Origin: Saccharomonospora sp. NB11
Lineage (GTDB): Bacteria; Actinomycetota; Actinomycetes; Mycobacteriales; Pseudonocardiaceae
Assembly: GCF_015910535.1 (NCBI RefSeq)
Contig: NZ_JACBJG010000003.1
Location: 372,001-436,000 of the forward strand
DNA: 64,000 bases
Reading direction: 5' to 3'
Shown in pieces: positions 26,453 through 33,809 of this stretch. How positions within the stretch are numbered: the stretch's first letter is position 1; the number at the start of each line of letters is the position of its first letter. The notes beneath the pieces are model-generated. The model was not told the origin of the DNA and ran no database searches. It worked only from the letters and a program-made list of their open reading frames with translations. A program made the translations under genes and the position numbers.

Positions 26453-27922
26453 ATGACGAGCACCGAGCAGGCCGTCGAGACGTTCGACTCGTTCGATCCG
26501 GCGACCGACCGGGTCGTGGGCACCTACCCGGTGCACGACGCCGCCGCTGTGGACGCCGCCGTCGCGAAGGCCCGCGAGGCCGCCCGATGGTGGGCCTCGC
26601 TCGGGTTCGCCGGACGCGCCGAACGGCTCCGCCGGTGGAAGGGCGTGCTCGTTCGCCGCATGTCCGAGCTGTGCGACGTGGTGAGTTCCGAGACGGGCAA
26701 GCCGCGTGGTGACGCGCAGTTGGAGATCGTGCTGGCCGTCGAGCACATCGAGTGGGCGGCGCGCCATGCACGGAAGGTGCTCGGACCTCGGCGTCGATCC
26801 TCCGGCCTGCTGCTGGCCAACCAGGCCGCCACCGTCGAGTACCAGCCGCTCGGGGTTGTCGGGGTCATCGGGCCCTGGAACTATCCCGTCTTCACCCCCC
26901 TCGGGTCGATCGCGTACGCGCTCGCGGCGGGCAACGCCGTGGTGTTCAAGCCCAGCGAGTACACGCCCGGGGTCGGCGCCTGGCTGGTGGACGCGTTCGC
27001 GCAGGCCGTGCCCGAGCAGCCGGTGTTGTCGCTGGTGACCGGGTTCGGCGCGACGGGAGCGGCGTTGGTGCGCTCCGACGTCGACAAGATCGCGTTCACC
27101 GGTTCGGCCGCCACCGGGAAGAAGATCATGGCCACGGCAGCGGAACGCCTGACCCCGGTGATCATCGAAGCCGGTGGCAAGGACCCGTTGCTGGTCGACT
27201 CCGACGCCGATCTCGACGCGGCGGTCGACGCCGCCGTGTGGGGTGCCTTCTCCAACGCCGGACAGACCTGTGTCGGTGTCGAGCGCGTCTACGTCCACAC
27301 GGCCGTGTACGACGAGTTCGTCGCGAAGCTCACCGAGCGGGCCCGGGGTATCCGGCCGGGCGAGCACTACGGGCCGATGACCATGCGGTCGCAGCTCGAT
27401 GTGGTGCGCCGACACATCACCGACGCCCTGGCGAAGGGCGGCCGTGCGCTCGTGGGTGGCGCGGACGCCGTCGGCGACCGCTACGTGCAGCCGACGGTGC
27501 TGGTCGACGTGCCCGAGGACTCCGAGGCCGTGCGGGAGGAGACCTTCGGCCCCACGATCACGGTGACGCAGGTCGCCGACATGGACGAGGCCGTGGAGAA
27601 GGCCAACGACTCGTCCTACGGGCTCGGGTCCACGGTGTTCTCACGTCGGCGTGGGATGGAGCTGGCGCGCCGACTGCGGACCGGGATGACCGCGATCAAC
27701 GCGCCGTTGTCGTTCGCGGGTATCGCGACGTTGCCCTTCGGCGGGGTCGGGGAGTCGGGCTTCGGCCGCATCCACGGTCCCGAGGGGCTGCGGGAGTTCG
27801 CGCGGCCGAAGGCCATCGCGCGGCAGCGCTATCGCATGCCGCTGGTGATGACCACGTTCGCCCGCACGGCCAAGACGGACGAGCTGGTGGGCAAGCTCGT
27901 GCGGTTCCTGCACCGGCGCTGA
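26453..27922 (+). CDS. NAD(P)-dependent aldehyde dehydrogenase
   Basis: The 489-residue enzyme belongs to the ALDH superfamily in the group with vanillin, succinate-semialdehyde or fatty aldehyde dehydrogenases. It has the cofactor strand VIGPWNYP near 143 with GNAVVFKPSEYTPG, FTGSAATGKKI near 217, the general base Glu in IEAGGKDP near 240 and the nucleophile Cys in NAGQTCVGVERVY near 275. A hydrophobic-basic C-terminal stretch could touch the membrane. TACGCT at 26441-26446 is exactly 6 nt before the ATG. It lies next to, but is not separated by an operator from, the IclR locus, so I do not count it in that regulon. Confidence 0.9.
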   Translation: MTSTEQAVETFDSFDPATDRVVGTYPVHDAAAVDAAVAKAREAARWWASLGFAGRAERLRRWKGVLVRRMSELCDVVSSETGKPRGDAQLEIVLAVEHIEWAARHARKVLGPRRRSSGLLLANQAATVEYQPLGVVGVIGPWNYPVFTPLGSIAYALAAGNAVVFKPSEYTPGVGAWLVDAFAQAVPEQPVLSLVTGFGATGAALVRSDVDKIAFTGSAATGKKIMATAAERLTPVIIEAGGKDPLLVDSDADLDAAVDAAVWGAFSNAGQTCVGVERVYVHTAVYDEFVAKLTERARGIRPGEHYGPMTMRSQLDVVRRHITDALAKGGRALVGGADAVGDRYVQPTVLVDVPEDSEAVREETFGPTITVTQVADMDEAVEKANDSSYGLGSTVFSRRRGMELARRLRTGMTAINAPLSFAGIATLPFGGVGESGFGRIHGPEGLREFARPKAIARQRYRMPLVMTTFARTAKTDELVGKLVRFLHRR

Positions 27923-27948: not shown

Positions 27949-27964
27949 GTCCGAAGTTTCGGAC
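27949..27964. promoter_or_regulatory. IclR operator 1 (autoregulation)
   Basis: GTCCGAAGTTTCGGAC is a palindrome with two mismatched centre bases. It lies 8 bp before the iclR -10 hexamer TAGGCT (27973-27978), in the -35 zone. The same palindrome occurs at the MFS gene (32439-32454) and, degenerate, at 32332-32347. Confidence 0.85.
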
Positions 27965-27984
27965 ATTGCTGGTAGGCTGGACGC

Positions 27985-28758
27985 ATGGCTCGTCTCGTGC
28001 CCGCCGTGCTCCGCGCGGCCGACATCCTCGAACTGTTCCTCGGCGACGACGCCACGCTGTCGGCCGCCGAGATCGGCCGACGCCTGGAACTGCCGAGGTC
28101 GACGGCGCACGAACTGCTGACCACCCTGGTCGAACGCCATTACCTCGTGCGGCGCTCGGGCGAGGAGACGACCTATCAGCTCGGTCCGCGGTTGCTGGAG
28201 CTCGGATCGCGTTACCAGCAGCGGCTGGAGTTCGCCGCCGAGGCCGACGCGGTGGCGCGGCAGGTGGCGGCGGAGTGCCGCGAGACCGTGCACGTCGGAG
28301 TGCTCGACGGCATCGAGGTCGTCTACGTGTCCAAGGTGGACTCCACGCACTCGGTGCGGCTCATCTCCGAGGTGGGACGGCGACTTCCGGCGCACTGCAC
28401 GGCCGTCGGCAAGGTGCTGTTGGCGGGACTGTCCGACGCGGAACTGTCCGAGCGGCTGAAGGGGCGACGACTCGTGGCCCTGACGGAGCACAGCATCACG
28501 TCGCGGACCGAACTTCGCGCGCAGCTCGATCAGGTGCGCACGTCGGGGGTCGCGTTCGAACGCAGTGAGTCCAATGTCGACGCCGGCTGTGTCGCGGCGC
28601 CCGTCGTGGACGCCACGGGACAGTGGGTGGCGGGCATGAGCATCTCCATCCCCACCTCGCGGCACAGCGACGAGGCGTGGCCGACGTGGGAGAAGCTCGT
28701 GCGGGAAGGCGCCGCCGAGTTGTCGCGCCGGTTGGGCGGTCGTCCGGTGAACTCGTGA
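27985..28758 (+). CDS. IclR-family regulator of the acid catabolism locus
   Basis: The 257-residue regulator has the N-terminal winged helix (LRAADILELFLGDDATLSAAEIGRRLELPRSTAHELLTTL) and the C-terminal effector domain typical for IclR (VHVGVLDGIEVVYVSKVDSTHSVRLISEVGRRLPAHCTAVGKVLLAG, then CVAAPVVD). TAGGCT is exactly 6 nt before the ATG, so the mRNA is leaderless. A palindrome in its own promoter is shared with two promoters at 32.3-32.5 kb, so I infer that it senses the transported acid or an intermediate and represses transporter, enzymes and itself. Confidence 0.92.
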   Translation: MARLVPAVLRAADILELFLGDDATLSAAEIGRRLELPRSTAHELLTTLVERHYLVRRSGEETTYQLGPRLLELGSRYQQRLEFAAEADAVARQVAAECRETVHVGVLDGIEVVYVSKVDSTHSVRLISEVGRRLPAHCTAVGKVLLAGLSDAELSERLKGRRLVALTEHSITSRTELRAQLDQVRTSGVAFERSESNVDAGCVAAPVVDATGQWVAGMSISIPTSRHSDEAWPTWEKLVREGAAELSRRLGGRPVNS

Positions 28759-28768
28759 GCCCGCGCGA

Positions 28769-28799
28769 CGAAGGGCCGCCGGTTGGCGACGGCCCTTCG
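28769..28799. terminator. Bidirectional terminator between iclR and the KGSA dehydrogenase
   Basis: Perfect 10-bp arms CGAAGGGCCG (28769-28778) and CGGCCCTTCG (28790-28799) in the gap of two convergent genes; the arms lengthen by a few GC pairs outside. Confidence 0.8.
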
Positions 28800-28810
28800 C
28801 GCGAGGTGGT

Positions 28811-30184
28811 TCAGCGGGGCAGCAGCGTCGAAGGCACGTTCTGGAACGCAACCGGACGCAGGAAGCGCGCCGAGGCGGTGATTCCCACCGACGTGTGCAG
28901 CGGCGACGTCGTGGCGGGGTACGGACCGCCGTGATGCATGGCCGGGGTGACCGACACGCCCGTGGGCCAGCCGTTCCACAGCACCCGGCCCACGCGGTCG
29001 GCCAGCTCGGTGAGCAGCGGGCGGGCGACGTCGTCGGACTCCTCGCCGTGCACGGTGCCGGTGAGCTGGCCCTCCAGCGACCGGGCGACGGCGAGCAGTT
29101 GTTCGTCGTCGTCGTAGGTCACCACGAGCGACGTGGGTCCGAAGCACTCCGTCGCGAGTGCGTCGGGGTCGGCCAGCAGGTCGGCCGCCGTCGTGGCGAG
29201 CAGTGTCGGGGTCGGTCCGTCCTCGCCCAGGGCGCCTTCTACCAGCACGCGCACCGACGGGTGGCCGCGCAGGGCTTCCAACCCCGTCGTGTAGTTGTCG
29301 GTGATGCGGTCGTTGAGCATCGCGGTGGCGTTCTTGCTGCGGGCGTGCTCGGCGGCCAGCTCGGGCAGTCGGGAGTCCGACGGCACGAGCAGCAGTCCCG
29401 GTTTCGTGCAGAACTGGCCGGTGCCGAGCGTGAACGAGTCGACGTAGCCGGTGGCGATCTCCTCGCCCCTGGCCTGTGCTGCCGCCCGGGTGACGAACAC
29501 CGGGTTCACGCTGCCCAGCTCGCCGTAGAACGGGATGGGCTCCGGACGCGAGACGGCGAGGTCGAACAGCGCCCGACCGCCCCGCAGCGACCCCGTGAAC
29601 GCGACAGCCTTGGTGCGCGGGTCGAGAACCGCGTCCCGGCCGTCGGCCTCGCCGTGGAAGAGCGCGAACGTCCCCTCGGGGGCACCCGCCTCCGCCAACG
29701 CCGTCCGCACGATCGCCGCGGTGGCGTCGGACAGCTTCGGGTGGCCGGGGTGCGCCTTCACCACCACGGGGCAGCCCGCGGCCAGCGCCGAGGCCGTGTC
29801 GCCGCCCGCCACGGAGAACGCGAACGGGAAGTTCGACGCCGCGAACACCACGACCGGGCCGAGCGGCAGCAGCACGCGCCGCAGCGCCGGACGAGGCCCG
29901 GTGGGCCAGTCGGGGTCGGGCTCGTCCTCGATCACCTCGAAGCCGTCCCGCACCTGCCCCGCGAACGACCGGAGCTGGAAGGTGGTGCGCACCAGCTCGC
30001 CACGCAGCCGCGCCTCGGGCAGGTGGCTCTCCTGCTGTGCCAGCGGCACCAGTTCGTCGGCGGCGGCGTCGAGGGCGTCGGCGACGGCTTCCAGCGCCTT
30101 CGCGCGCGTCGTGTCGGGAAGCTGCGCCCACGGCCGGGCGGCCTCGGCCGCCGCGGTGAGCAGAGTGTCGGTCACGTCGGTCAT
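28811..30184 (-). CDS. 2,5-dioxopentanoate (alpha-ketoglutarate semialdehyde) dehydrogenase-like ALDH
   Basis: The 457-residue ALDH belongs to the NADP-linked group that turns alpha-ketoglutarate semialdehyde into 2-oxoglutarate, the last step of oxidative pentose-acid and hexarate routes. The markers are FAASNFPFAFSVAGGDTASALAAGCPVVVKAHPGHP near residue 115, the Glu in FYGELGSVNPVF near 225 and the Cys in GTGQFCTKPGL near 265. It starts at the ATG 30184, overlapping the dehydratase stop (ATGA); the frame's upstream extension is out-of-frame reading of the dehydratase. It is the last gene of a three-gene operon with dehydratase and U32-like gene. The exact substrate is inferred from family. 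Confidence 0.88.
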   Translation of the reverse strand: MTDVTDTLLTAAAEAARPWAQLPDTTRAKALEAVADALDAAADELVPLAQQESHLPEARLRGELVRTTFQLRSFAGQVRDGFEVIEDEPDPDWPTGPRPALRRVLLPLGPVVVFAASNFPFAFSVAGGDTASALAAGCPVVVKAHPGHPKLSDATAAIVRTALAEAGAPEGTFALFHGEADGRDAVLDPRTKAVAFTGSLRGGRALFDLAVSRPEPIPFYGELGSVNPVFVTRAAAQARGEEIATGYVDSFTLGTGQFCTKPGLLLVPSDSRLPELAAEHARSKNATAMLNDRITDNYTTGLEALRGHPSVRVLVEGALGEDGPTPTLLATTAADLLADPDALATECFGPTSLVVTYDDDEQLLAVARSLEGQLTGTVHGEESDDVARPLLTELADRVGRVLWNGWPTGVSVTPAMHHGGPYPATTSPLHTSVGITASARFLRPVAFQNVPSTLLPR

Positions 30185-31356
30185 GCGTCGTCTCCTTCCG
30201 GAGCGGTCGCCTTGGTGCCGCGGAACTGCCAGTCCTCGGCGAACAGGTCGAAGCGCGCGGCCTGGAACGGATGCTCGGCCACGAAGTCGGTGTCGAGCTC
30301 CACACCGAGGCCCGGCGCGGTCGGCAGCGTGAAGTAGCCGTCCTCCACGGGAGGCAGTCCGGGCGCCGCCTGCTTGACGTGCTCGTCGGCGAAGTCGTTG
30401 AAGTGTTCCTGGATCTTGAAGTTCGGTGTGCACGCGGCCAGGTGCAGGTTGGCCATCGTCAGCACGGGGCCGCCCACGTTGTGCGGAGCCACCAGCACGA
30501 AGTGCGTCTCCGCCGTGGCCGCGAGCTTGCGGGTCTCCAGAATGCCGCCCAGGTGGCCGATGTCGGGCTGGATGACGTCGGCGGCCTGGAGTTCGAACAG
30601 CTCACGGAACTCCGCCCGGTCGTGGATGCGCTCGCCGGTGGCCACCGGGGCGTCGACCTGCTCGGCGACCTTCGCGAGCGCCTTGAGGTTCTCCGGCGGC
30701 ACGGGTTCCTCCAGCCAGCTCGGGTCGAACTTCGCGAGCGAGCGGGCGATCCGGACCGCCTCCGCGGGCGCGAACCGGCCGTGCATCTCGACGAGGATCT
30801 CCACGTCGGGACCCACGGCGTCGCGCACGGCCTCCACGAGTTCGACCGAACGCGTGCGCTCCCGCGAGTCCAGCTCCCACTGGCCCGGTCCGAAGGGATC
30901 GAACTTCAACGCGCGGTAGCCGCGATCGACCACGCGCCGGGCGGCGGCGTGGAACTCCTCTGGCGTGCGTTCGACGGTGTACCAGCCGTTGGCGTACGCC
31001 TTGACCCGGTCGCGCACCTTGCCGCCGAGCAGCCGCCACACCGGCTGGCCGAGAGCCTTGCCCACGATGTCCCAGCACGCCATCTCCACGCAGGCGATGC
31101 CGGACATCATGATCTCGCCGGGCCTGCCGTAGTCGCCGCGCTTCATGCGCTGCACCAGGGCCTCGATGTCGAACGGGTCGGCGCCGAGCACGTGCCGGGG
31201 AACGGCCTCCGTCAGGTAGCCCTTCAACGCCTCGGTGTGGCCGAGCATCCGAGTCTCGCCGACGCCGGTCAGCCCCTCGTCGGTGGTGACGCGGACGAAG
31301 GTCAGATCACGCCACGGCGTGCCCATCACGAACGTCTCGACATCGGTGATCTTCAC
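30181..31356 (-). CDS. Enolase-superfamily acid-sugar dehydratase (D-galactonate/mannonate dehydratase-like)
   Basis: The 391-residue enzyme has the MLE/MR fold: N-terminal capping domain to about 125, then the barrel. Metal ligands are the Glu in EILVEMHGRF near 212, the Glu in WLEEPVPP near 238 and the Glu in ATGERIHDR near 264; the His of EMHGRF and the His of APHNVGGP near 314 correspond to the two catalytic His of GalD-type dehydratases. It should take water off an aldonic or aldaric acid to give a 2-keto-3-deoxy acid. The GTG start overlaps the U32-like stop (GTGA). Confidence 0.88.
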   Translation of the reverse strand: MKITDVETFVMGTPWRDLTFVRVTTDEGLTGVGETRMLGHTEALKGYLTEAVPRHVLGADPFDIEALVQRMKRGDYGRPGEIMMSGIACVEMACWDIVGKALGQPVWRLLGGKVRDRVKAYANGWYTVERTPEEFHAAARRVVDRGYRALKFDPFGPGQWELDSRERTRSVELVEAVRDAVGPDVEILVEMHGRFAPAEAVRIARSLAKFDPSWLEEPVPPENLKALAKVAEQVDAPVATGERIHDRAEFRELFELQAADVIQPDIGHLGGILETRKLAATAETHFVLVAPHNVGGPVLTMANLHLAACTPNFKIQEHFNDFADEHVKQAAPGLPPVEDGYFTLPTAPGLGVELDTDFVAEHPFQAARFDLFAEDWQFRGTKATAPEGDDA

Positions 31357-32324
31357 GTCGCACTCCTCGTCGGCTCGGTGACGGCGGTGGTGTCGGGGAC
31401 GGCCAGCCCCTGCGCGGGCAGCGTCGACGCCACGGCGTCGGGGGCGTACCGGGCGAGGGTCTCAAGGCCGATCTCGGCGCGACGCACGCGCTCCCGGGAG
31501 AGACTGACGGCGGTGCTGGTCAGGTGCGTGCCGCTCGGGTAGATGTTCGGCGCGTTGCGCAGGCCGAACTTGAGGTACACGGGTGCGGCGACCCGCACGA
31601 TCTCGGCGATCTCGAAGTGCCGGACGAACCCGCCGAGGTCGTCGGGTGACTCGACGTAGATGTCGATCGGGATGTCGATGGCCGCTCGTACCGCGGCGAG
31701 CTGGGCCAGCGAGAGGTCAGTGGGCACGTTGTAGGTGTCGGCACCGTGGTCCTGGGCGATGCGGATGGACGCCGGGTTCGACAATCCCATCTGCACGCTC
31801 ACCTTGAACTGCAGGTCGGCGGGGAGTTCGCCCGTCTCGCGCATGCGGGAGGCGACGCTCAGCACACCGAGGTCGGTGACGAGCACGCTGCGGACGCCAG
31901 CCTCCGCGGTGCGCCGGATGTCGGCGAGCACGTGGACGAGTTGTTCGGTTCCCCTGGCCTGCGCGGCCATCGACCCGCCGCCCTGGGCGAGCGACCCCGC
32001 GCCCGTGTCCCACCCGGCCACGGGGCGCGCGAACAGGCTCAGCTCCACGCTCCGCGCCTCGGCGAGCGCGGCCATGGCCGTGAGTTCGGTCCGGGTGAGC
32101 AGCATGCCGCCGCTGCCCTGGGAGACCCGGTGGACGGTGACTCCTCGGGCGTCGGCCTCGCTGAAGACGGCCTCCATCGCCTCGACCCCCTCGACACTGG
32201 GGATCTCGACGCGGTACGCGGCGCCGTCGGGAAAGCGTTTCGTGCTGCTCGGGAGCTCGCCGGGGTCTGTCGAAGGCAGTCCGAGCGAGCGCAGGAAGGA
32301 TCGCGACCGTTCCACCGCATCCAC
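31353..32324 (-). CDS. Peptidase U32-like TIM-barrel protein
   Basis: The 323-residue protein shows no signal peptide. The part from about 125 to 230 (ADIRRTAEAGVRSVLVTDLGVL, NPASIRIAQDHGADTYNVPTDLSLAQLAAVRA, IDIYVESPDD) resembles the U32 family of TIM-barrel proteins; some U32 members are proteases, others modify RNA or quinones, so the role here is open. It is the first gene of the operon with the dehydratase and KGSA dehydrogenase. I start it at the GTG 32324; the frame runs to 32483 but that stretch contains the IclR operators. No ribosome site, so perhaps leaderless. Confidence 0.65.
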   Translation of the reverse strand: MDAVERSRSFLRSLGLPSTDPGELPSSTKRFPDGAAYRVEIPSVEGVEAMEAVFSEADARGVTVHRVSQGSGGMLLTRTELTAMAALAEARSVELSLFARPVAGWDTGAGSLAQGGGSMAAQARGTEQLVHVLADIRRTAEAGVRSVLVTDLGVLSVASRMRETGELPADLQFKVSVQMGLSNPASIRIAQDHGADTYNVPTDLSLAQLAAVRAAIDIPIDIYVESPDDLGGFVRHFEIAEIVRVAAPVYLKFGLRNAPNIYPSGTHLTSTAVSLSRERVRRAEIGLETLARYAPDAVASTLPAQGLAVPDTTAVTEPTRSAT

Positions 32325-32331
32325 CAATCTT

Positions 32332-32347
32332 GTCCGAAATATCGGAT
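32332..32347. promoter_or_regulatory. IclR operator 2 (U32-dehydratase-KGSADH operon)
   Basis: GTCCGAAATATCGGAT differs from the perfect palindrome in two bases. It starts 8 bp upstream of the U32-like gene's GTG and covers a minus-strand GATATT that could be the -10. Confidence 0.75.
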
Positions 32348-32438
32348 GGCATTCGTGTCTGCGAACGACATTAGGGCTGCGACCGTTGACAGCGCAAGGG
32401 GCTGGTCTTACGGTTCCGCCAACGCAATGACGGACGTG

Positions 32439-32454
32439 GTCCGAAATTTCGGAC
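32439..32454. promoter_or_regulatory. IclR operator 3 (MFS transporter gene)
   Basis: GTCCGAAATTTCGGAC is a perfect 16-bp palindrome, 23 bp before the GTG of the transporter gene. It stands 92 bp from operator 2, so one repressor could cover both divergent promoters. Confidence 0.85.
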
Positions 32455-32477
32455 GTAACTGATCGGGGAAGACAACG

Positions 32478-33809
32478 GTGCACCCTGACACCTCGCGGGT
32501 CTCACCGCGCACGATCCGAGCGATCACGCTGCGACTTCTGCCCTTGCTCGCGGTGCTCTACGTGATCGCTTACATCGACAGATCGAACGTCGGCTTCGCC
32601 AAGCTCACGCTCCAGGAGGAGCTGGGGCTCTCGGCGACGGTCTTCACGTTGGGCCAGGTCTTCTTCTTCGTGGCCTACGCGGTGCTCGAAGTGCCCAGCA
32701 ACCTGGCGCTCCACCGATTCGGGGCCCACCGCTGGATCGCCCGCATCATGATCACGTGGGGCCTGGTCACCGTCGCCACGGTACTGGTGACCGAGACCTG
32801 GCAGTTCTACCTGGCTCGATTCCTGCTCGGAGCGGCGGAGGCCGGGTTCTTCCCCGGTGTCATCTACTACCTGACGCGGTGGTTCCCCTCGGCCCACCGA
32901 GGTGCCGCCATCGGGCTGTTCATGCTCGCCGGGCCGATCTCGTTCATCGTGGGCAACCCGCTGATGGGTGCGCTCAACGACCTCGACGGCGTGTGGGGTC
33001 TCGCCGGTTGGCAGTGGATCTTCATCGCGACCGGTGTGCCCGCCGTGCTCGCCGCCCCCGTCGTGCTGTGGCTCCTGCCCCGCGACCCCGACAGCGCGAA
33101 GTGGCTCGACGACGGCGAGCGCGCAGCCCTCAAGAATGCTCTCGCCGCCGAGGACGCCGAGGCCGGTGACCAACCGCACAACCCGTGGAAGGTGCTCGCC
33201 GACCGCCGCGTGCTCGCGATGGCCGTCTTCTTCCTCTGCTTCCCGCTCGCCACGTACGGTCTGGCGTTCTGGCTGCCGACCATCGTCGAGGGCTTCGGCG
33301 GTCTGTCGGGGCTGGAGGTCGGACTCGTGTCGGCCATCCCGTACGTGTGCGTGATGGTGGGACTGCTGGCCGTCCCGCGACTGGCCAGGACGAGGGGCAC
33401 GCCGTTCGGCTGGCTTGCGGCGATGCTGGGCTTCTCGGCGGCGGGCTTCACGCTCGCGGCGCTGGTGTCGTCGCCGGCGTTGCAGATGGTCGGCATCTGC
33501 GTCGCGTCGATCGGTGGTTACGCCGCACAGCCGGTGATGTGGGGGCTCGTGCCGAAGTTCCTCACCGGTGCCGCCGCGGCGGCGGGGATCGGAGCGATCA
33601 ACGGCATCGGCAACCTCGGCGGTGGGTTCGGGCCGATGGGCATCGCGGCGGTCGTGGACGCGACCGGCTCGCCGCTCACCGGTTTGATCTTCCTCATCGT
33701 CGTCTCGCTCGTCGGCGTCGCCGGGGCCTTCGGGCTGCGTCGAGTGCTGACCCGCGGTCGGTCCGAGCAGCAGCCGCCGGAGCGACCCGAGACCGTGGCC
33801 AACGTCTGA
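32478..33809 (+). CDS. MFS transporter of the anion:cation symporter (ACS) family
   Basis: The 443-residue carrier has twelve hydrophobic helices and the ACS-family start LPLLAVLYVIAYIDRSNVGFAKL, plus GAAEAGFFPGVIYYLTRWFP near 115, as in transporters for galactonate, glucarate, galactarate or phthalate. It should take up the acid that the divergent operon degrades. GGGGA stands about 10 nt before the GTG start. The perfect IclR palindrome lies in its promoter. A 15-bp hairpin follows the gene. Confidence 0.92.
   Translation: MHPDTSRVSPRTIRAITLRLLPLLAVLYVIAYIDRSNVGFAKLTLQEELGLSATVFTLGQVFFFVAYAVLEVPSNLALHRFGAHRWIARIMITWGLVTVATVLVTETWQFYLARFLLGAAEAGFFPGVIYYLTRWFPSAHRGAAIGLFMLAGPISFIVGNPLMGALNDLDGVWGLAGWQWIFIATGVPAVLAAPVVLWLLPRDPDSAKWLDDGERAALKNALAAEDAEAGDQPHNPWKVLADRRVLAMAVFFLCFPLATYGLAFWLPTIVEGFGGLSGLEVGLVSAIPYVCVMVGLLAVPRLARTRGTPFGWLAAMLGFSAAGFTLAALVSSPALQMVGICVASIGGYAAQPVMWGLVPKFLTGAAAAAGIGAINGIGNLGGGFGPMGIAAVVDATGSPLTGLIFLIVVSLVGVAGAFGLRRVLTRGRSEQQPPERPETVANV

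Follow-up and report, generated by a model that had tools for sequence, protein, structure and literature searches.

In the Route II (Weimberg-type) pathway of L-arabinose degradation, found in Azospirillum, Herbaspirillum and Rhizobium, a sugar dehydrogenase, a lactonase, an aldonate dehydratase, a 2-keto-3-deoxypentonate (KDP) dehydratase and a 2-oxoglutarate semialdehyde (KGSA) dehydrogenase act one after the other in this order. The portions of three papers that deal with known KDP dehydratases place those for the D form in the FAH family and those for the L form in the DHDPS family (PMC9795676, PMC7374468, PMC6336799). Here we have analyzed a stretch of 64,000 nucleotides from Saccharomonospora sp. 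NB11 (assembly GCF_015910535.1, contig NZ_JACBJG010000003.1, positions 372,001 to 436,000; hereafter the window), which at positions 27949-33809 holds a gene cluster with an IclR-family regulator, a carrier of the MFS type and an operon for a U32-like protein, an enolase-superfamily dehydratase and an aldehyde dehydrogenase (ALDH). The same set of enzyme roles can be proposed for this system as for Route II, and the window ALDH is homologous to that of an Azospirillum operon (50% identity). In contrast to Route II, the aldonate dehydratase is of the enolase type instead of the IlvD/EDD type, the slot of the DHDPS-family KDP dehydratase is taken by the U32-like gene, and the cluster has IclR control and a carrier gene. 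No DHDPS- or FAH-family KDP dehydratase was found among the proteins of the window cluster, and the two FAH and two DHDPS genes of the genome lie on other contigs.

The U32-like protein shares its predicted reaction and its neighbourhood slot with the L-KDP dehydratase of the DHDPS family (L-KdpD) and the D-KDP dehydratase of the FAH family (D-KdpD). It differs from L-KdpD, for which the relevant part of PMC9795676 gives a Schiff-base lysine on strand 6, in that its own invariant lysines are located on strands 5 and 8 of the structural model. With peptidase family U32 (UbiU, UbiV, RlhA, TrhP) it has in common a partial PF01136 match and a Foldseek match to Mk0906; on the other hand it lacks the four-cysteine 4Fe-4S motif, kept in 8 of 10 U32 families according to a passage of PMC6747719, and is linked to sugar-acid operons. 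The regulator resembles local regulators of the IclR family (KdgR, BhcR and others) in domain architecture and in having palindromes at its own and its target promoters, but falls below the curated cut-off for each of the 9 NCBIfam models listed.

As a whole, we lean towards reading the cluster as a local IclR regulon by which a soil actinobacterium would convert L-arabinonate, through a U32-like dehydratase and an ALDH, to 2-oxoglutarate. The elements concerned, in window coordinates, are:

27949-27964, no strand: operator in the iclR promoter, an exact 16-bp palindrome, kept at iclR in relatives
27985-28758, plus strand: iclR, IclR-family regulator of 257 aa, with PF09339 and PF01614 over cut-off
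28811-30184, minus strand: ALDH of NADP(+) type, 457 aa, a putative 2-oxoglutarate semialdehyde dehydrogenase judged by PF00171, solved relatives and homologue neighbourhoods
30181-31356, minus strand: enolase-superfamily aldonate dehydratase, 391 aa, with MR_MLE N and C domains, a putative L-arabinonate dehydratase
31353-32324, minus strand: U32-like protein, 323 aa, GTG start at 32324-32322, partial PF01136 match, by elimination a candidate L-2-keto-3-deoxypentonate dehydratase
32332-32347, no strand: operator at the head of the U32-dehydratase-ALDH operon, two changes against the 16-mer, 7 bp before the predicted GTG
32439-32454, no strand: operator in the MFS promoter, exact, with at most one core mismatch in 14/14 MFS rows of relatives
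32478-33809, plus strand: MFS carrier, 443 aa, predicted to take up pentonate, nearest model the D-galactonate transporter

In the proposed mechanism IclR would bind three palindromes, one in its own promoter, one at the head of the operon for the three enzymes and one in the promoter of the carrier gene, and is probably a repressor that is released by an acid intermediate. The carrier may import the acid, or supplement acid made in the cell by a separate locus for a zinc-dependent alcohol dehydrogenase (Zn-ADH) and a lactonase. The enolase-superfamily enzyme would dehydrate L-arabinonate to L-2-keto-3-deoxypentonate, the U32-like protein, a cysteine-free TIM barrel, would remove the second water to give KGSA in place of the DHDPS-family L-KdpD, and the ALDH would oxidize KGSA to 2-oxoglutarate.

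The enzyme genes follow each other on the minus strand in the order U32-like, dehydratase, ALDH, with neighbouring reading frames overlapping by 4 bp. The original prediction had named an IclR regulator, an MFS carrier, a KGSADH-like ALDH and an enolase-superfamily dehydratase, and had them right; the U32 match is weak in both NCBIfam and Pfam. In Pfam the IclR protein scored 50.7 bits with PF09339 and 154.2 bits with PF01614, both above cut-off. The carrier matched TIGR00893, the D-galactonate transporter model, at E 4.5e-86 but under the model's cut-off, and the best NCBIfam matches of the dehydratase, gluconate and galactonate dehydratase, were likewise below cut-off (galactonate model, 302.3 bits versus a cut-off of 311).

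The three enzymes had also been grouped into one system by the original prediction, which stands, while the U32-like protein had been left without a role. That role is best approached through related loci (L-numbers denote loci compared and G-numbers genomes compared, the window's own being G000), in which neighbouring genes were mostly named by BLASTP or phmmer likeness to Pfam-checked representatives. Of 94 loci examined, L071, L095 and L154 have no called U32-like open reading frame (ORF), leaving 91 that were counted, among them a few repeats from the same genome (e.g. L041/L106, L050/L110 and L047/L111). These counts, like those of operator rows, co-occurrence and AraA given below, take genomes as they come, with kinship uncorrected. 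Within 6.5 kb of the U32-like gene we found a dehydratase in 30 loci, ALDH in 27, Zn-ADH in 21, SMP-30 in 15, IlvD in 9, GH43 in 7, a GH51-type gene in 5 and IclR in 51; representatives of SMP-30, IlvD/EDD, GH43, the alpha-L-arabinofuranosidase C-terminal domain and Zn-ADH were confirmed with Pfam. Six loci (L055, L065, L066, L069, L075, L078), four from Frankia or Parafrankia and two from the window's family, unite Zn-ADH, SMP-30, dehydratase, U32-like protein and ALDH, five candidate enzymes for the five steps that lead from L-arabinose to 2-oxoglutarate, and L160 is a near parallel with ALDH, IlvD, U32-like protein and Zn-ADH.

Once the other pathway-linked enzymes of the six complete loci have been assigned, only the U32-like gene and the step from 2-keto-3-deoxypentonate to KGSA are left, and no DHDPS, FAH or HpcH relative was found near these loci. 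Since elimination leaves one gene and one step, the U32-like protein is probably the missing KDP dehydratase. Moreover, its slot in the window cluster is that of the DHDPS gene in an operon of Azospirillum thermophilum, and in three loci (L088, L089, L102) the U32-like gene lies directly before genes for an acetaldehyde dehydrogenase and an HMGL/DmpG aldolase (Pfam on L089 only). Meta-cleavage operons carry a 2-oxopent-4-enoate hydratase in that slot before DmpF-DmpG, with the same C4 hydration chemistry. We put forward, as a proposal with about equal chances of holding and failing, that the cysteine-poor U32-like TIM-barrel family contains a third, unrelated family of 2-keto-3-deoxypentonate dehydratases, and more broadly consists of 2-oxo-4-hydroxy-acid (de)hydratases, some of which fill the MhpD-type slot before DmpF-DmpG.

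The pairing with the aldonate dehydratase is close. A U32-like gene was present in 22/24 dehydratase-positive genomes of the order sample and in 40/41 of the class sample, and in nine loci (L074, L085, L090, L101, L155, L157, L160-L162) the partner dehydratase is of the IlvD/EDD type instead of the enolase type. Such a choice of partners would be expected of a U32-like enzyme that uses the product shared by both types.

The U32-like protein itself matched PF01136 with 37.8 bits against a gathering score of 22.4, over profile positions 8-90 of 233 and residues 135-223 only. No other Pfam family was matched at E <= 0.01, hence no DHDPS or FAH domain; no solved chain was matched in sequence at E <= 1, and BLASTP at 1e-3 gave no match to an L-KdpD. 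The window's protein has no cysteine, and in an alignment of 67 sequences (the window's included; X-containing sequences, those outside 260-360 aa, duplicates, L061 and L070 left out) no column has cysteine in at least 20% of the rows. Residues invariant in 67/67 include D151, K174, S176, N183, R213, D221, R235 and K252. The AlphaFold model is an eight-stranded TIM barrel (mean pLDDT 85.2, pTM 0.85) in which strands 5, 7 and 8 carry K174, D221 and K252, respectively. Foldseek returned generic TIM barrels, with TM below 0.55 in the best 50 listed, aldolases and lyases among the top ones and the U32 protein Mk0906 (5d88) at rank 15; as many generic barrels match at low TM, no reaction was assigned from the fold. 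In the open-licence literature nothing was found on a U32-like protein in a sugar pathway, although such absence is not proof.

With respect to the last step, the solved relatives of the ALDH at E <= 1e-20 are 3v4c and 1eyy/1ez0 only, and in type it resembles the type III KGSA dehydrogenases. With the NCBIfam KGSADH model NF042993 it scored 67.7 bits against a cut-off of 770, and we take that model to describe another KGSADH subfamily. For comparison we took six plasmid regions around ALDH homologues 49-63% identical to it, hand-chosen from 30 of 452 records, of which five have a DHDPS-family gene near the ALDH homologue. In Arthrobacter (63% identical) and Citricoccus (57%) it is accompanied by genes for a DHDPS-family protein, a proline racemase family protein and FAD oxidoreductases, which is the known layout of hydroxyproline catabolism via KGSA. 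In A. thermophilum an ALDH of 50% identity closes a row of genes for an mmsAB transporter, a Gfo/Idh oxidoreductase, an IlvD/Edd dehydratase, SMP-30 and a DHDPS protein, the last an end-to-end match to the solved L-2-keto-3-deoxyarabonate dehydratase (3fkk, E 1.5e-147). In Paracoccus the ALDH homologue comes after a DHDPS gene, and on a Rhizobium plasmid it stands after an 'L-arabinonate dehydratase' gene and directly before a 5-dehydro-4-deoxyglucarate dehydratase gene. The entry at 2-oxoglutarate suggested by the original prediction gains support from this comparison, as ALDH relatives sit where KGSA is expected: the window ALDH is probably a KGSA dehydrogenase, and 2-oxoglutarate is likely the end product of the pathway.

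The original prediction had left the acid unnamed. From the arabinofuranosidase/GH43, Zn-ADH and SMP-30 neighbours in relatives it can be narrowed, and L-arabinonate, as a rather likely candidate, comes before all others. GH51-type and/or GH43 genes occur near the U32-like gene in L076-L078, L143, L146-L149 and L151; that of L078 is a GH43 with AbfB domain, found together with a mutarotase (Pfam), and stands outside the tally of 7. Sugar transporters are also found beside some relatives of the cluster. In the window's genome (4.30 Mb; cluster on contig C23, with C21, C27 and C28 as further contigs) a locus at C21:124000-142000 (L171) holds Zn-ADH, SMP-30, a LacI gene, two sugar ABC transporter sets, GH1 and Gfo/Idh, the Zn-ADH being 57% identical to that of the L099 operon and the LacI close to that of L078. 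As a probable locus of L-arabinose oxidation and uptake, it is likely to convert the sugar to the acid. Since the 18 kb examined at this locus contain no relaxed palindrome at up to 3 mismatches, the conversion of sugar to acid seems to be controlled separately. The original prediction of a self-contained system was in this respect too strong: the IclR regulon is local, but the Zn-ADH and SMP-30 pair lies at C21 beside LacI without the palindrome, and some relatives keep the U32-like gene and iclR with no dehydratase or ALDH nearby. Finally, PF02610 (AraA) was found in 0/26 U32-positive genomes of the family (the window's included) versus 10/20 U32-negative ones, in a survey of 75 genomes hand-chosen from earlier lists. 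L-Arabinose is, on these comparisons, probably the sugar.

The regulatory part of the system rests on shared operators. As originally predicted, three sites match: those at 27949-27964 and 32439-32454 fit all 14 fixed positions of GTCCGAANNTTCGGAC, and that at 32332-32347 has two changes. When as many as 3 mismatches are allowed, 4 sites are found in the window versus 5.2 expected, which is not above chance, and the evidence is therefore taken from the exact copies, of which 2 were seen versus 0.00055 expected per window in a first-order Markov model of the window. Apart from these two, the exact 16-mer has no copy in the genome (4.3 Mb scanned, about 0.04 expected). The exact 14-bp core has three, the two of the cluster and one in a terminator hairpin on C28, and one-mismatch cores are also three, namely the enzyme-operon site, C23:171280 within called ORFs, and C27:140553. 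A reversed-pattern control gave no genomic match, either exact or at one mismatch. The genome scan proposed with the original prediction thus finds that the palindrome is not frequent at unrelated genes. The sites lie 20 bp (iclR), 7 bp (U32) and 23 bp (MFS) before the predicted start codons, spacings that would suit repression.

In related loci the best core match was sought from 230 bp upstream to 40 bp inside each gene. Sites with up to 2 core mismatches were found at U32 in 28/63 rows, at iclR in 22/44 and at MFS in 14/14 (all with no more than one), as compared with 114/5000 random 270-bp stretches of the same loci, some of which are perhaps real sites; the gene-wise counts overlap because one site between divergent genes counts for both. 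At the dehydratase a site was seen in 3/25 rows (L082-L084, where the dehydratase heads the enzyme genes) and at the ALDH in 1/24 (L096, where the ALDH is the first of them). Among 20 chosen relatives 19 match the relaxed 16-mer at up to one mismatch, with at most 6 matches per strand, and the reversed pattern matched only G251, the sole genome without a real match. The motif was found at the same genes in other genera. Some copies away from the main cluster precede GH43 genes (L130, L132), a sugar-ABC/GH43 gene row (L129) and carrier homologues (L127, L131), and those of L130 and L132 suggest that in one genus the regulon may reach arabinan breakdown. Some rows speak against conservation: no site was seen at iclR in Saccharomonospora piscinae (L041/L106), L051 or L082-L084 (5 mismatches), and Saccharopolyspora sites are weaker, with at least 3 mismatches. 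The original claim that one IclR regulon ties regulator, carrier and enzymes together is nevertheless supported by the sites shared across genomes, and in the comparative sense the regulon is real.

Several candidate extensions were discarded. That the regulon extends further within the window's genome was considered from 7 more relaxed 2-mismatch places, among which C28:198477 is the terminator and C23:171279 lies within called ORFs. In three relatives, apparent additional sites lay 115-138 kb away from the cluster; as 9/9 of them fell within called reading frames, they were not counted as operators. An SSADH-like ALDH gene (26453-27922), upstream of iclR and adjoining the cluster in many relatives, had a site at up to 3 core mismatches in 0/23 rows and was rejected as a regulon member. 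On the other side, the genes downstream of the MFS carrier are presumably purine genes, as we take them to be from their sequences.

Other explanations have to be weighed against this scheme. The most serious makes the U32-like protein an aldolase for 2-keto-3-deoxy acids (Route I), giving pyruvate and glycolaldehyde, with the ALDH oxidizing the glycolaldehyde, which we regard as unlikely. It would suit a fold in which many proteins are aldolases, aldolases and lyases being among the top Foldseek matches, and it draws on small-genome locus L155, where the U32-like gene is followed by SDR, APH-type kinase and enolase-family genes (Pfam on L155 only), with genes of like size at that place in L156 and L157; the L155 order would fit cleavage of a hexonate to glyceraldehyde, followed by glycerate, phosphoglycerate and PEP, and weighs as such against a dehydratase. 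However, ALDH relatives sit where KGSA is the expected aldehyde, and L088, L089 and L102 already hold a DmpG-type aldolase, the usual upstream partner of which is a hydratase. A regulon for a different acid (L-xylonate, L-lyxonate, galactonate or a hexarate), handled by the same enzyme logic, is improbable to a similar degree. In its favour, the closest models are those of gluconate/galactonate dehydratase for the dehydratase and that of the D-galactonate transporter for the carrier; L100, L061 and L070 have KdgD-like genes some 6 kb away from the U32-like gene; and MFS, U32-like and ALDH genes occur with no dehydratase nearby in L044, L045, L050 and L107-L110. On the other hand, GH51-type and GH43 neighbours in other genera point to L-arabinose, the window cluster has no KdgD-type gene, and the two DHDPS genes of the genome are only 24-28% identical to KdgD/L-KdpD. 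Less probable still is a U32-like protein that is accessory, regulatory or a U32-type redox enzyme, with a chromosomal DHDPS or FAH enzyme as the dehydratase: PF01136 is matched over cut-off and the genome holds two FAH and two DHDPS genes, but conserved cysteines for an Fe-S cluster are lacking, none of the four FAH/DHDPS genes is on C23, both DHDPS proteins share only 24% identity with an L-KdpD, and the U32-like protein and the dehydratase remain paired in nearly all dehydratase-positive genomes.

Further observations count against an L-arabinonate pathway with a U32-like dehydratase. No pathway gene was found within 6.5 kb in 36/91 U32 loci, of which 19 are from Amycolatopsis or Saccharopolyspora that keep the U32-like gene and iclR and others are distant members, and 26/48 U32-positive genomes of the order sample have no dehydratase at 1e-130. 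In two of the 24 dehydratase-positive genomes (G119, G169) the dehydratase occurs alone in unrelated surroundings; considered as cases of a displaced DHDPS or FAH gene, they were set aside, the dehydratase being a lone gene there and uninformative. DHDPS/FAH relatives are near in 4/39 aldonate-dehydratase loci (L100, L157 and, as weak ones, L155 and L160), and a FAH gene is near the U32-like gene in L156-L158. The Rhodococcus plasmid region, one of the six ALDH regions, carries nothing pointing to KGSA; the C21 saccharide locus has a GH1 gene and no recognized arabinofuranosidase; and 7/29 U32-positive genomes from outside the family have AraA as well. Moreover, other members of the U32-like family have unrelated surroundings, and functions within it therefore probably vary.

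If the scheme holds, a widespread protein annotated as 'U32 family peptidase' would be a sugar-acid dehydratase, and the oxidative L-arabinose route would be completed in many actinobacteria, which would explain how genomes of the family that have no arabinose isomerase could use L-arabinose. It would also mean that a reaction employed in producing 2-oxoglutarate-derived chemicals from plant pentoses has a third lineage of enzymes, and would offer a regulator that responds to an acid and has a very specific operator.

Two further observations concern the operator motif. The core copy on C28 (L007:6477-6512, near C28:198478) lies in a hairpin of -30.5 kcal/mol (z -6.9) followed by U, directly after a tRNA-Gly/Cys/Val row, and its outer bases do not fit the 16-mer; a tRNA-operon terminator with the exact operator core is a natural decoy for motif scans. 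The one-mismatch core at C27:140553 (L009:3554-3567) lies just outside long ORFs.

As to the wider U32-like family, members at E <= 1e-20 were found in 48/397 genomes of the order and 69/394 of the class sampled. Outside the phylum, a plasmid of Thermomicrobium roseum carries a 66%-identical U32-like gene after genes for IclR, a sugar ABC transporter, a mandelate-racemase-family protein and an MBL-fold hydrolase. In L079-L081 the U32-like gene stands between a MaoC-like and a DHDPS-like gene, together with FAD oxidase, transketolase-like and CoA-transferase genes, an arrangement kept in three genomes, and it is accompanied by hydantoinase B in L091 and by haem-oxygenase-like genes in L092. A distant member (29%) on a plasmid of Enterobacter chuandaensis (71030-91899; L164) lies in a biosynthesis-like cluster beside genes for a phosphotransferase, an aminotransferase and iron-containing redox enzymes.

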